A stretch of DNA of 64,000 nt from an uncultured Collinsella sp. (GTDB lineage Bacteria; Actinomycetota; Coriobacteriia; Coriobacteriales; Coriobacteriaceae), in contig CALULJ010000009.1 of the NCBI GenBank assembly GCA_944321445.1, positions 1-64,000 of the forward strand, given 5' to 3'. A program made the position numbers and the translations under genes. A model generated the notes under the pieces. That model saw only the letters and a program-made list of their open reading frames with translations. It did no database searches and was not told the origin of the DNA. Within the stretch, counting starts at the first letter, position 1; each line of letters starts with the position of its first letter. Shown here piece after piece: positions 2,898-62,239 of the stretch.

Positions 2898-3262
2898 GGC
2901 GCAAAGCGGACCGATAAGCCGGGTTCTGTCGAGAACGGTCATTTATCTTGGCGCACACGTCACCGTGCGGCTCCTCGCACGCTACCCGAGCGCGGACCGG
3001 GCCGGCCCATCGCGCTCCTATTCGCGCTTGCTCCGGATGGGGTTTACCAAGCCGCCGCGTTGCCGCGACGCTGGTGGTCTCTTACACCACCGTTTCAGCT
3101 TTTCCCTTTACGCATACGCGCAGGTGGGAGTCTTCTTTTCTGCGGCACTTTCCGTCGGGTCGCCCCGCCTGGCCGTTAGCCAGCATCCTGCCCTGTGGAG
3201 CCCGGACTTTCCTCACGCCGGGGTCTCCCCCGGTCGCGCGACCGTCTGGCCCGCTTTGCAAG
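2898..3262 (-). ncRNA. rnpB: RNase P RNA, bacterial type A
   Basis: The minus strand contains the universal RNase P RNA elements in order: GAGGAAAGTCCGGGCTCC near the 5' end, ACAGGGCAGGATGCTGGCTA, the GGAAAGTGCCGCAGAAA block, GGTAAACCCCATCCGGAGCA, and finally CAGAACCCGGCTTATCGG. The outer helix P1 forms between GCAAAGCGGGCC (5' end, near 3260) and GGTCCGCTTTGC (3' end, near 2900), which fixes the boundaries to within a few bases. The RNA is the catalytic subunit that trims tRNA 5' leaders. Reading frames across this region on both strands are spurious. Confidence 0.97.
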
Positions 3263-58632: not shown

Positions 58633-58684
58633 AAACAGGGAAGAAATAATTCGACTTCCCGTCTTCCCTGTGCGCGCTCCACTG

Positions 58685-58693
58685 TGCTATAGT
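58685..58693 (+). promoter_or_regulatory. Extended -10 promoter for the Trp-controlled ECF operon
   Basis: TGCTATAGT is an extended -10 element, 54 bases upstream of the leader peptide start. The -35 region has no good consensus, which is acceptable for TGn-type promoters. Confidence 0.55.
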
Positions 58694-58747
58694 GCAGCGC
58701 AACAGCGACAGCTGCAAACCTCGAGATTCACGAAAGGAGCCACCAGC

Positions 58748-58816
58748 ATGAAGCACCTTACCTCCGCTCTCAACAACTGGTGGTGGCGTGATGCGATTTC
58801 GGCCGGTCAACGGTGA
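58748..58816 (+). CDS. Trp-rich leader peptide controlling the ECF transporter
   Basis: This 22-codon open frame contains three consecutive TGG codons (58778-58786) within NNWWWRD, at peptide positions 11-13. GAAAGGAG (58732-58739) gives a strong ribosome-binding site 8 bases upstream of the ATG. Three Trp in a row in so short a peptide is very unlikely by chance, and it sits upstream of a terminator and transporter genes. This is the classical design in which ribosome stalling at uncharged tRNA-Trp senses tryptophan. The peptide itself has no expected function after synthesis. Many annotation tools would miss it because of its length. Confidence 0.9.
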   Translation: MKHLTSALNNWWWRDAISAGQR

Positions 58817-58883
58817 GTCCCTCACGCGTATCCAACGTATAGCGCGCAGAAGGCCTCCGGTTTGACCGGGGGCCTTTTTCTTT
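58801..58883 (+). promoter_or_regulatory. Transcription attenuator: antiterminator and terminator helices
   Basis: The terminator is an 11-bp stem, AGGCCTCCGGT (58851-58861) with ACCGGGGGCCT (58865-58875), loop TTG, then TTTTCTTT. Upstream, CCGGTCAA (58803-58810), inside the last codons of the leader peptide, is exactly complementary to TTGACCGG (58862-58869), the terminator loop and 3' arm start. The two pairings are mutually exclusive. A ribosome stalled at the Trp codons leaves 58803-58810 free to pair and prevent termination. A ribosome that reaches the stop codon covers it and allows the terminator. Confidence 0.85.
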
Positions 58884-58950
58884 GCGTCGCCCCTCGCATC
58901 ACGCGCCCCCGCACCCCACTTCCACCATCTCACAGAAAAGGATGATCACC

Positions 58951-59523
58951 ATGTCCCAGAACACCCGCACCCCCCAGGCCCGCACCGTCTCTACCGTCGA
59001 CCGCGGCAAGCTCGACATCAAGGCTCTCGTATTGCTCGCCGTCCTGCTCGCCGCCGGCTTCATCCTCAACATGACGCTCGGCAAAGCCATCGGCGCCATG
59101 TCGGCCGGCATGATCAACCCCGAGTTCATCATCTCTGCCTTCTGCATCACCATCCTCGTCGTGCGCCCGAGCCTCGTGCAGGCGCTCATCATCGGCCTCG
59201 TCTCGGCCGCCGTCATCCAACTCACCACGAGCCTGCCCGGTGCCGACTTCATCGCCGAGGGCGTCGCCGCCGTCCTCATGGCCCTCATCGTCAACGCCGG
59301 CATGAAGACCGGTGCCCGCGCGATCATCCCCACCGTCGGCGCTTTCGTGACCACCTTCGTCTCCGGTTTCATCTTCATGCTCATCCGCATGGCCTTCATG
59401 CAGTTCAACATGAGCATCGCCGCCGCCATGTTGCCGGTCGTCGCCATCACCGCCGTCTTCAACGCCGTGCTGGTGGGCGCCCTGTACCTGCCCATCAAGA
59501 AGGCCCTGAAGCTCAACGACTAG
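58951..59523 (+). CDS. ECF transporter substrate-binding (S) component, TrpP-like
   Basis: This 190-residue membrane protein has five or six hydrophobic segments and a short hydrophilic N-terminus. The pattern NPEFIISAFCITILVVRPSLVQALIIGL followed by LTTSLPGADFIAEGVAAVLMAL resembles the tryptophan-uptake family TrpP, and the organisation (small integral membrane protein, then ABC ATPase and EcfT) is that of ECF transporters. Specificity for tryptophan is inferred mainly from the WWW leader peptide upstream. The ATG at 58951 follows AAAAGGATG. It is separated from the energising genes by a second terminator (59581-59609), so the S gene may be expressed in excess of the ATPase module. Confidence 0.85.
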   Translation: MSQNTRTPQARTVSTVDRGKLDIKALVLLAVLLAAGFILNMTLGKAIGAMSAGMINPEFIISAFCITILVVRPSLVQALIIGLVSAAVIQLTTSLPGADFIAEGVAAVLMALIVNAGMKTGARAIIPTVGAFVTTFVSGFIFMLIRMAFMQFNMSIAAAMLPVVAITAVFNAVLVGALYLPIKKALKLND

Positions 59524-59580
59524 CATCAAAGCACCCTTGCCGCCGCGACTCATCAAGCGGTGCCACGCGATATCATTGAA

Positions 59581-59609
59581 GCGGGCCGCCTGCGCGACGG
59601 CCCGCTTTT
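59581..59609 (+). terminator. Internal terminator between S component and ATPase gene
   Basis: GCGGGCCG (59581-59588) pairs with CGGCCCGC (59598-59605), followed by TTTTG. A second small hairpin (CCGGGC/GCCCGG) lies just before the ecfA ribosome-binding site. Transcripts would be split between S and A/T genes unless read-through occurs. Confidence 0.7.
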
Positions 59610-59664
59610 GTCCACAGCGCACCTCCCGGGCAAGCCGCCCGGTCACAGATTCGGAAAGGCATTT

Positions 59665-61422
59665 ATGGCAGCAATCATCGAGATGGACGGCGTCTCGTTC
59701 TCCTATGGAGCAGAGGCAGAGCACGCGCTCGACGATGTCTCGCTCCGCGTGAACGAAGGCGATTTCGTCGGCATCATCGGCCCCTCCGGCGCAGGCAAGT
59801 CGACGCTCGCCGCGTGCCTGTCGGGCGCCATCCCCCACCACTTCACCGGCGAGCTCTTCGGCAGCACCCTCATCGCGGGCAAGGATACCTGCGATGTCAC
59901 GCTTACCGACATCTCGCGTCTCGTCGGCTCCGTCGCACAGGACATCGACGCGCAGATGGTCGCCTCCGTGGTGGAAGATGAGCTGCTTTTCGGCCTCGAG
60001 AACTTCGGCGTCCCCCACGACCAGATCGAGGACCGCATCGCGCGCACCCTTGCCACGGTAGGCATCGCCGACCTGCGCGAGCGCGAAATCGCCACGCTCT
60101 CGGGCGGCCAGAAGCAAAAGGTGGCAATTGCCGCCATCCTCGCGCTCGAGCCGCGCGTGCTCGTGCTGGACGAGCCCACGGCAGCCCTCGATCCGGTGAG
60201 CTCGCGCGTGGTCTTCGAGACCCTCGCTGACGTCAACCGCCGTCTGGGCGTGACCGTGATCGTCATCGAGCAAAAAGTTGCACTCCTTTCGAGCTTCTGC
60301 TCGCGCGTCGTGGTCATGGACCACGGGCGCATCGCGCTTTCGGGCACCCCGCACGAGGTCTTTGGCCACAGCGACCGTCTGCGCGCCATCGGCGTGGACA
60401 GCCCCCGCACGGCGCGCATCTCCAACAGCCTGGTGGGCGACGGACTCGTTGCCCAGGCGGCACCGTGCCTGAACGTCGATGAGGCGCACGCGCTCATCCG
60501 CAGCGTGCTCGCGGGCGTCCCCGGCGTCACGCAGGCCGCGGCCGATGATCCGGAGCCCTCACCGCACATCCCCACCCGCCCGCACGCGCAGGGCGCCGAC
60601 CCCATCCTCACCTTTCGCCAGGTGGGCTTTACCTATCCCAGCGGCGGCGCAAGCGTGACCGACCTCGACATAACCGTCTACCCCGGCGAGCTCGTGGGCA
60701 TCGTGGGCCAAAACGGTGCCGGCAAGACCACGCTCACCAAGCTGCTGAACGGCCTGCTCAAGCCCACGCGCGGTAAGGTCCGGGTCGCCGGGCTCGACAC
60801 GCGCGAGACCCCCGTATCCACCGTGGCCGCGCACGTGGCGACGCTCTTCCAGAACCCCGATCGCCAGATTTGCAAGAACACCGTGCTCGATGAGGTCGCC
60901 TTCGGTCTCGAGCTCACCGGCGTCGACCCCGCCGCGGCGCGCGAGCGGGCACGACGCGTCATCAAGCGCTTCGGGCTGCCCGCCGGCGAGGCGCCGTTCT
61001 CGCTGTCGCGCGGTCAGCGCCAGATGGTCGCGCTGGCAGGCGTGGTGGTGATGGAACCCGACATCGTGGTGCTCGACGAGCCCACAAGCGGCCTTGACTA
61101 TCGCGAGTGCATGACCGTCATGGAAACGGTGCGCGACATGGCGGACCACGGCAGCGCCGTGATCATGGTGTGCCACGATATGGAGGTCGTAAGCGACTTC
61201 GCCGAACGCATCGTCGTCATGGCCGACGGCCGCATCCTGGGGCGCGGCCCCGCGGCGGACCTCTTTGCGAACACCGCCCTCATGGAAGCCGCCAGCGTGA
61301 CGCCGCCGCAGGTCATAGACCTGTCCGTGCGTCTCGCGCGCGACGTCTCCCCCGCGTTTGCGCACATCACCGAAGTGAGCGACATCGTTCGCACCGTGAA
61401 GGAGCTGATGGGCCGTGCTTAA
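59665..61422 (+). CDS. ECF transporter ATPase with two fused ABC domains (EcfA-EcfA')
   Basis: This 585-residue soluble protein joins two ABC ATPase domains. The first (about 1-270) has Walker A GPSGAGKST (39-47), signature LSGGQ (145-149) and Walker B VLVLDEP (165-171). The second (about 315-560) has GQNGAGKTT (348-356), LSRGQ (447-451) and VVLDEP (468-473). Each has the downstream catalytic-site elements expected. Fusion of EcfA and EcfA' replaces the usual two separate genes. It powers uptake with EcfT and the S component. The ATG at 59665 is used; the upstream in-frame extension would run through a terminator. The end overlaps ecfT by 8 bases. Confidence 0.95.
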   Translation: MAAIIEMDGVSFSYGAEAEHALDDVSLRVNEGDFVGIIGPSGAGKSTLAACLSGAIPHHFTGELFGSTLIAGKDTCDVTLTDISRLVGSVAQDIDAQMVASVVEDELLFGLENFGVPHDQIEDRIARTLATVGIADLREREIATLSGGQKQKVAIAAILALEPRVLVLDEPTAALDPVSSRVVFETLADVNRRLGVTVIVIEQKVALLSSFCSRVVVMDHGRIALSGTPHEVFGHSDRLRAIGVDSPRTARISNSLVGDGLVAQAAPCLNVDEAHALIRSVLAGVPGVTQAAADDPEPSPHIPTRPHAQGADPILTFRQVGFTYPSGGASVTDLDITVYPGELVGIVGQNGAGKTTLTKLLNGLLKPTRGKVRVAGLDTRETPVSTVAAHVATLFQNPDRQICKNTVLDEVAFGLELTGVDPAAARERARRVIKRFGLPAGEAPFSLSRGQRQMVALAGVVVMEPDIVVLDEPTSGLDYRECMTVMETVRDMADHGSAVIMVCHDMEVVSDFAERIVVMADGRILGRGPAADLFANTALMEAASVTPPQVIDLSVRLARDVSPAFAHITEVSDIVRTVKELMGRA

Positions 61423-62161
61423 CGTGATCGATTACGTTCCCGGCGATACCCTGCTGCACCGCCTGAACCCTGTGACCAAGCTCGCGCTCGCGGCTGCCAT
61501 CATCGCGGCGACGTTTTTGGCCAACACCTACGCTGCACTCGTGGGGCTGCTCGTGCTCACACTGCTACTCGCCGCTTACGCCGGCGTGTTCGGACGCTTG
61601 GCGCGCCTACTGAAGCTCCTTGTGCCCATCGCACTCATCATGCTCGTGCTGCAGCTCGTCTTCGTGCGCGGCGGCGACACGCTCTTTTCCTTCGTGACCG
61701 ATGAGGGCCTCATCACCGGCGGCAAGGCGTGCCTGCGCCTGCTGGGCGTAGCGCTGCTGCTCGTGCTCATGCTCATGGTCACCAAGCTCACCGACCTCGC
61801 CAACGCTTGCGTCGAGAAGCTGCACATCCCCTATAAGTACGCGTTCACCTTCACCACGGCGCTGCGCTTCGTGCCGGTGTTCTCGCAGGAGATGAACGCC
61901 ATCATGGAGGCGCAGACCGCGCGCGGCGTGCAGTACGACACCAAAAACCCGTTCAAGAAGATGCAGCTCATGCTGCCGCTGTGCGTGCCGCTGCTTATCT
62001 CGAGCGTGAGCAAGACCGATGCGACGGCCCTTGCGGCCGAGCAGCGCGGCTTCTACCTGCGCACGCGCGCGAGCAGCTACCGGCGCTATCCGTTTGCTGC
62101 GCGCGACATCGTCGTCTTCGCGCTATGCGTGGCGCTGATTGTGGGAGGTATCGTCCTGTAG
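61415..62161 (+). CDS. ecfT: ECF transporter transmembrane component EcfT
   Basis: This 248-residue protein begins at a GTG (61415) overlapping ecfA by 8 bases. It has YVPGDTLLHRLNPVTKLALAA at the N-terminus, four to five membrane segments, and the cytoplasmic coupling-helix signature in QTARGVQYDTKNPFKKMQLM, followed by a second Arg-Gly element in LAAEQRGFYLRTR. These Ala-Arg-Gly motifs dock into the ATPases. A terminator follows the stop codon. Confidence 0.95.
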   Translation: MLNVIDYVPGDTLLHRLNPVTKLALAAAIIAATFLANTYAALVGLLVLTLLLAAYAGVFGRLARLLKLLVPIALIMLVLQLVFVRGGDTLFSFVTDEGLITGGKACLRLLGVALLLVLMLMVTKLTDLANACVEKLHIPYKYAFTFTTALRFVPVFSQEMNAIMEAQTARGVQYDTKNPFKKMQLMLPLCVPLLISSVSKTDATALAAEQRGFYLRTRASSYRRYPFAARDIVVFALCVALIVGGIVL

Positions 62162-62192
62162 GCGCGACTGTGCGACAATGGGTCCTGTCAGT

Positions 62193-62239
62193 GAAGGCGG
62201 GCGCGTCCCAGCTTTTGGGCGCGCCTGCCTTCATTTTTG
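62193..62239 (+). terminator. Terminator after ecfT
   Basis: GAAGGCGGGCGCG (62193-62205) pairs with CGCGCCTGCCTTC (62220-62232), with an inner TCCCA/TGGG stem, followed by ATTTTTG. It lies 31 bases after the ecfT stop codon. Confidence 0.88.

Follow-up and report, generated by a model that had tools for sequence, protein, structure and literature searches.

A DNA stretch from an uncultured Collinsella sp. (the window, 64,000 nucleotides in length) contains a leader peptide with three adjacent tryptophan codons, which is followed by an intrinsic terminator and the genes of an ECF-type transporter. Very probably, this leader is part of a ribosome-mediated transcription attenuator that senses charged tRNA-Trp and controls the expression of the S-EcfAA'-EcfT tryptophan importer of an auxotroph. 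The element has the anatomy, the conservation, the geometry and the computed folds of an attenuator, and its counterparts precede the orthologous operon in two bacterial families.

The leader peptide and its terminator

The original prediction had described a leader peptide with three adjacent Trp codons, followed by a U-tailed terminator of 11 bp, and both are found in the window, the former at 58748-58816 with its Trp codons at 58778-58786 and the latter at 58850-58876. The following elements define the region in front of the first structural gene:

58683..58693, forward strand: extended -10 promoter element TGTGCTATAGT (sequence; counterpart in relatives)
58733..58739, forward strand: AAAGGAG, ribosome-binding site of the leader peptide (sequence; relatives)
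58748..58816, forward strand: leader peptide MKHLTSALNNWWWRDAISAGQR, ending with the stop codon TGA at 58814-58816 (open reading frame in the sequence; recurs in Coriobacteriaceae and Atopobiaceae)
58778..58786, forward strand: three adjacent Trp codons, putative ribosome stall site (sequence; WWW or WW in relatives)
58785..58791, forward strand: segment 1, GGCGTGA, just 3' of the Trp codons (compensatory versions in relatives)
58803..58820, forward strand: segment 2, 5' strand of the antiterminator, CCGGTCAACGGTGAGTCC, with the leader stop codon inside (GGTC in 74/74; duplex energy)
58822..58827, forward strand: TCACGC, partner of segment 1, after the stop codon (folding; compensatory versions in relatives)
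58850..58879, forward strand: intrinsic terminator, 11 bp and T tract (sequence, folding; counterpart in aligned relatives)
58852..58869, forward strand: segment 3, 3' strand of the antiterminator, comprising the terminator 5' arm, the loop and the start of the 3' arm (per-sequence folding)

The leader is a short, presumably translated open reading frame that combines a run of codons for a single amino acid with a good ribosome-binding site, which is of the GGAG type in 79 of 81 leaders. A TATAGT or TACAGT element is located about 40-60 nt 5' of the leader start in 53 of the 81, in most cases preceded by TGTGC or TATGC, and transcription of the leader in the window probably starts near 58700. 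A search for a -35 element matching the consensus at this promoter found none. The intrinsic terminator, which lies 5' of the first structural gene, contains the helix AAGGCCTCCGG-TTTGA-CCGGGGGCCTT (58850-58876) followed by T's, and the region 58784-58880 folds more stably than its shuffled versions (z = -3.0, with 2 of 200 shuffles being equally good). When compared to the Rfam leader families, including Trp_leader, the leader of the window showed no significant match, the best being Phe_leader with 22 bits at a cut-off of 55. The sole Rfam match above the gathering score in the window is an RNase P RNA of class A on the reverse strand (2899-3257).

Antiterminator pairing and ribosome position

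The alternative pairing proposed to break the terminator, between CCGGTCAA at 58803-58810 and its complement TTGACCGG at 58862-58869, is present and conserved but constitutes only the outer part of a longer antiterminator. Instead of the 8 bp initially noticed, the latter comprises up to about 18 bp in an imperfect helix, where segment 2, which extends from the GGTC arm across the stop codon and ends near 58820, is paired with segment 3, the energy of the duplex being about -21 kcal/mol (mean of -21.6 kcal/mol from per-sequence folding). Since the antiterminator also takes up the 5' arm of the terminator, the timing problem inherent to a pairing with the 3' side only is eased. Segment 2 is itself enclosed by the pairing of segment 1 with TCACGC, which corresponds to the 1:2 hairpin of classical attenuators and which is found in compensatory versions in relatives (GGCGTGA:TCACGCC, GGCGCGA:TCGCGCC and GGCGCAG:CTGCGCC).

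GGTC finds a pairing partner in all 74 unique leaders, namely G(A/G)(C/T)C, which lies across the border between the terminator loop and the 3' arm. The Gly codon of this antiterminator arm is GGT in 74/74, compared to 11.5% of the Gly codons in S genes, and the last two bases of the loop are GA in 68 and GG in 6 of the 74, a conservation of GA that is not explained by the terminator, as the remainder of the loop is variable. With the GGTC/GACC core being almost invariant, covariation comes mainly from flanking pairs. If segments were swapped within families, the matched pair was better (p = 0.005 and 0.011), which is a modest effect uncorrected for phylogeny, while a permutation across all leaders showed a weak difference (-21.64 for matched segments vs -21.29), because the core is invariant and the within-family tests alone are informative. 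Owing to the varying length of the spacer, an RNAalifold consensus fold of a MAFFT alignment of partial leaders recovered the outer six-base-pair helix alone, and per-sequence duplex and mask folding were used in its place.

The ribosome was assumed to have its usual footprint, reaching about 15 nt ahead of the P site. With this footprint, stalling at WWW keeps segment 2 accessible, whereas a ribosome at the stop codon covers it. Such masks were applied to the 74 unique leaders, both in RNA cut just past GACCGG and in full-length RNA. In the cut RNA, a ribosome at the third Trp codon (W3) results in a mean probability of the antiterminator of 0.90, with values above 0.5 in 71/74 leaders, whereas with the ribosome at the stop this probability is 0, that of the terminator nucleus 0.95, and the terminator is obtained in 73/74. 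Shuffling of segment 2 lowers the probability of the antiterminator from 0.90 to 0.15. In full-length RNA, the terminator is thermodynamically favoured in 67-74 of the 74 leaders in every ribosome state and antitermination must thus be kinetic. Computation on partial transcripts hence yields an antiterminator that depends on the position of the ribosome and that excludes the terminator.

From these properties, we infer a mechanism in which ribosome stalling sets the read-through into the operon. If Trp-tRNA is scarce, the ribosome would stall at the three UGG codons and mask segment 1 (58785-58791), which would otherwise be paired beyond the stop codon and enclose segment 2. The freed segment 2 (58803-58820) would capture the bases 58852-58869 on their emergence from the polymerase, thereby blocking the terminator and allowing the transporter to be made. 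Conversely, if tryptophan is plentiful, the ribosome would reach the stop codon and cover segment 2, and the terminator at 58850-58876 would form.

Conservation and probable exchange of switches in Coriobacteriales

We have gathered 120 orthologous loci from three coded families, which, based on named records and general knowledge, we take to hold Collinsella (f1), Olsenella and Atopobium (f2) and the Eggerthellaceae (f3). Of 45 genomes of the genus, 44 encode the S protein, as do 64 of the 67 genomes of the family, with named relatives including Collinsella, Enorma, Olsenella, Thermophilibacter, Atopobium and others. In a search of these relatives, conservation was evident for the Trp codons as well as for the alternative pairing, in close and in distant relatives alike. 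The recurrence of the same leader, with adjacent Trp codons, 5' of the orthologous operon in 78 of the 81 loci from Coriobacteriaceae and Atopobiaceae shows that it is not a product of chance, and leader, stop codon, terminator and the order of S, A and T genes are kept across both families. Every detected leader of this main class contains WWW or WW. In nearly all of them, the spacing between W3 and GGTC equals six codons, which are followed by Gly-Arg or Gly-Gln, one further codon and the stop. A search for this fixed spacing yields a single hit in almost all positive genomes of the family, and its reversed control yields none; two MAGs have one common extra match, which resembles a chance hit. 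The three exceptions among the 81 loci comprise one leader with WAW at the same spacing, one locus with only 179 nt of upstream sequence within the stretch analysed and G207 (L123), the only intact locus without a leader, which has kept the terminator with GACCGG and whose genome encodes trpA and trpB. Loss of the leader in G207 possibly reflects decay of the switch in a prototroph. In the f3-coded genome G269, the locus L136 carries an S gene of the Coriobacteriaceae type together with its leader, reflecting either horizontal transfer or a binning error.

In f3, the orthologous operon is mostly devoid of a WWW leader and preceded by a T-box instead. The T-box motif was found in 36/40 loci of a first set and 16/20 of a second. 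These T-boxes are missed at the Rfam gathering score (93 bits) and were detected at a relaxed threshold, with scores of 56-74 bits and E-values from 1e-14 to 4e-10. Their specifier codon is UGG (Trp), as judged from two model alignments and from 35 located stems, each of which shows it in the same context. A second class of leaders was identified in one genus of Eggerthellaceae (g42; loci L159, L288 and L289), where the peptide ends with WWWxKxx before the stop codon. Its arms, CGGATCATC:GGTGATCCG in L159 and L289 and CGGATTATCGA:TCGGTAATCCG in L288, covary and keep the distance of the main class, starting 16-17 nt downstream of the third Trp codon. These arms are fully different from those of the main class and still complementary. 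This leader, which keeps the layout with a new sequence, is the strongest comparative evidence for the mechanism and the most surprising part of the picture.

In a tree of the S protein with 118 rows, T-box and WWW leader are strongly clustered and the WWW leader requires five changes, although this is a quick tree with midpoint root that does not fix the direction and exact number of exchanges. We consider it likely that, in Coriobacteriales, the charging of tRNA-Trp is sensed at one importer operon by either of two unrelated devices, the T-box of most Eggerthellaceae or the attenuator of Coriobacteriaceae and Atopobiaceae, that these devices have been swapped several times and that the second attenuator class arose independently.

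The described features bear on two alternative readings of the region upstream of the S gene. If the leader peptide was translated but the hairpin acted as an ordinary terminator with fixed read-through, the pairing of the open reading frame would have no regulatory role, as might be suspected from the full-length folds, where the terminator prevails in most leaders irrespective of the modelled state of the ribosome. The invariant GGT codon, the conserved GA or GG in the loop, the fixed spacing, the failure of a shuffled segment 2 to form the antiterminator and the complementary arms of an independently built second class all argue against this reading, which we regard as extremely improbable. 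Hardly more credible is a translational coupling or reinitiation between leader and S gene in place of transcription termination. Both reside on one transcript at a distance of 134 nt and PMC4833913 proposes reinitiation at leader peptides for bacteria in general, but a GC-rich, U-tailed hairpin is found between leader and gene in aligned relatives and the S gene has its own, spaced ribosome-binding site. We favour attenuation of transcription.

The transporter operon and its probable substrate

The genes downstream of the attenuator encode the components of an ECF transporter:

58951..59523, forward strand: substrate-binding S component, TrpP-related, 190 aa (profile matches of homologues, AlphaFold model, motif)
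59665..61422, forward strand: fused double ATPase EcfA-EcfA' (TIGR04520 444.5 bits, TIGR04521 420 bits, both above cut-off)
61415..62161, forward strand: EcfT scaffold protein of the CbiQ family (PF02361, E = 6.7e-29)
62190..62235, forward strand: strong terminator-like hairpin of 19 pairs at the operon end (sequence)

The fused double-ABC ATPase and EcfT of the original prediction were both recovered by these profiles. Its assignment of the membrane protein as TrpP-like is supported by way of homologues, of which 38 of 51 match the TrpP family PF17099 (best E-value 8.8e-14, with two genomes of the same genus exceeding the cut-off), whereas the protein of the window, if searched alone against Pfam, NCBIfam and PDB sequences, shows no match. 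A six-helix fold and an AXXXA motif in helix 1 are features of ECF S components (PMC11109136), and the window protein displays both, with six main helices in its AlphaFold model (pLDDT 87.6) and the sequence AVLLA at residues 30-34 of helix 1, where A30 and A34 are invariant in 51 sequences. In a Foldseek search, the nearest solved folds are those of the S components ThiT, RibU and FolT (probability up to 1.0, but weak E-values, above 0.05).

The S component shares its operon with its own EcfA and EcfT, as expected for a dedicated module, and the order S-EcfA-EcfT is found in nearly all loci on contigs of sufficient length, with no EcfA match in L100 and L111. The possibility that it constitutes the sole, shared ECF module of the organism was rejected, as five CbiQ/EcfT genes are contained in its genome. 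The gap between S and EcfA harbours a terminator-like hairpin (AGCGGGCCG...CGGCCCGCT, 59580-59609) followed by TTTT, which could lower the expression of EcfAA'T relative to S; as a conserved feature it was dismissed, with a comparable hairpin in only 11 of 121 loci. In L157, the single frame of the S protein continues to 499 aa, possibly as a fusion of S with EcfA. Several genomes contain a tandem second S protein behind the first, with 44-53% identity (L053 1481-1999, L069 1529-2065, L105, L118 and others), which suggests a duplication, perhaps supplying the one ECF module with an additional substrate.

From its regulation, its kinship to TrpP and the auxotrophy of its host, we infer that the operon encodes a dedicated importer of tryptophan. 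The specificity for this amino acid is independently supported by T-boxes with UGG specifier on the orthologous operon, by the relationship of the homologues to TrpP and by the absence of trpA and trpB, which both lack a profile match above cut-off in the genome of the organism and in most relatives, while controls were positive for both (14/14). In the genomes of ten relatives with trpA, no WW leader was found 5' of trp operons. Alternatively, a genuine attenuator might govern the import of a tryptophan-related nutrient such as indole, kynurenine, a Trp peptide or an aromatic vitamin precursor. This would be compatible with the lack of a direct family match of the window S protein and with the tandem S proteins, which may point to differing substrates within the family. 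We nevertheless find it unlikely, as two unrelated RNA devices read the charging of tRNA-Trp on this operon, as no Pfam family other than TrpP, which owes its name to tryptophan, is matched by most homologues and as indole or anthranilate could not be used by the ordinary route without trpA and trpB.

As a probable importer of tryptophan, the operon stands next to several known systems. Uptake of an amino acid by an ECF transporter, which the original prediction set against the known vitamin and metal substrates, is already known, with TrpP being counted among the ECF S proteins of B. subtilis (PMC11487621). Deletion of trpP in this organism raises the resistance to 5-fluorotryptophan, which is evidence of transport, and the gene is under translational control by the TRAP protein (PMC13170310). 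In contrast, the window places S, EcfAA' and EcfT together in a single operon headed by a leader peptide, and its S protein is related to the B. subtilis protein by the PF17099 matches of its homologues. Leader-peptide attenuators responding to tryptophan are known in Actinobacteria from trp operons and trpS of Corynebacterium and Streptomyces (PMC1262725), thus from the same phylum as the window. With these and with the trp attenuator of E. coli, the present element shares a short leader in which two or three UGG codons lie side by side, a U-tailed GC-rich terminator and a mutually exclusive antiterminator. It differs in its target, an importer in a genome without trpA and trpB, and in an antiterminator that spans the stop codon and draws on both sides of the terminator, its 5' arm as well as the first bases of its 3' arm. 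Control of tryptophan uptake by a T-box is described for S. suis trpX (PMC9382623), and in C. difficile a T-box is located 5' of a putative tryptophan transport gene (PMC11477304). As in these cases, charging of tRNA-Trp would govern transcription of a tryptophan importer, by a T-box also in the Eggerthellaceae orthologue but by ribosome stalling instead of direct tRNA binding in the window, and unlike its ECF operon, TrpX of S. suis is part of a substrate-binding-protein ABC system. Our search of the open-access literature found no report of a tryptophan attenuator in Coriobacteria or of an attenuator preceding an ECF operon. With ECF-mediated tryptophan uptake and Trp attenuators each being known, their combination is a well-supported variant.

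The leader provides a direct regulatory argument for the import of tryptophan by an otherwise unannotated S component of abundant gut bacteria that are unable to make this amino acid, and it bears on the question by whom dietary tryptophan is taken up in the gut. If the proposed exchange is true, two mechanistically different RNA switches responding to the same signal have traded places on one operon, which would offer a natural experiment in the convergent evolution of RNA switches, in which the geometry of the ribosome would constrain even an independently built second version of the attenuator.
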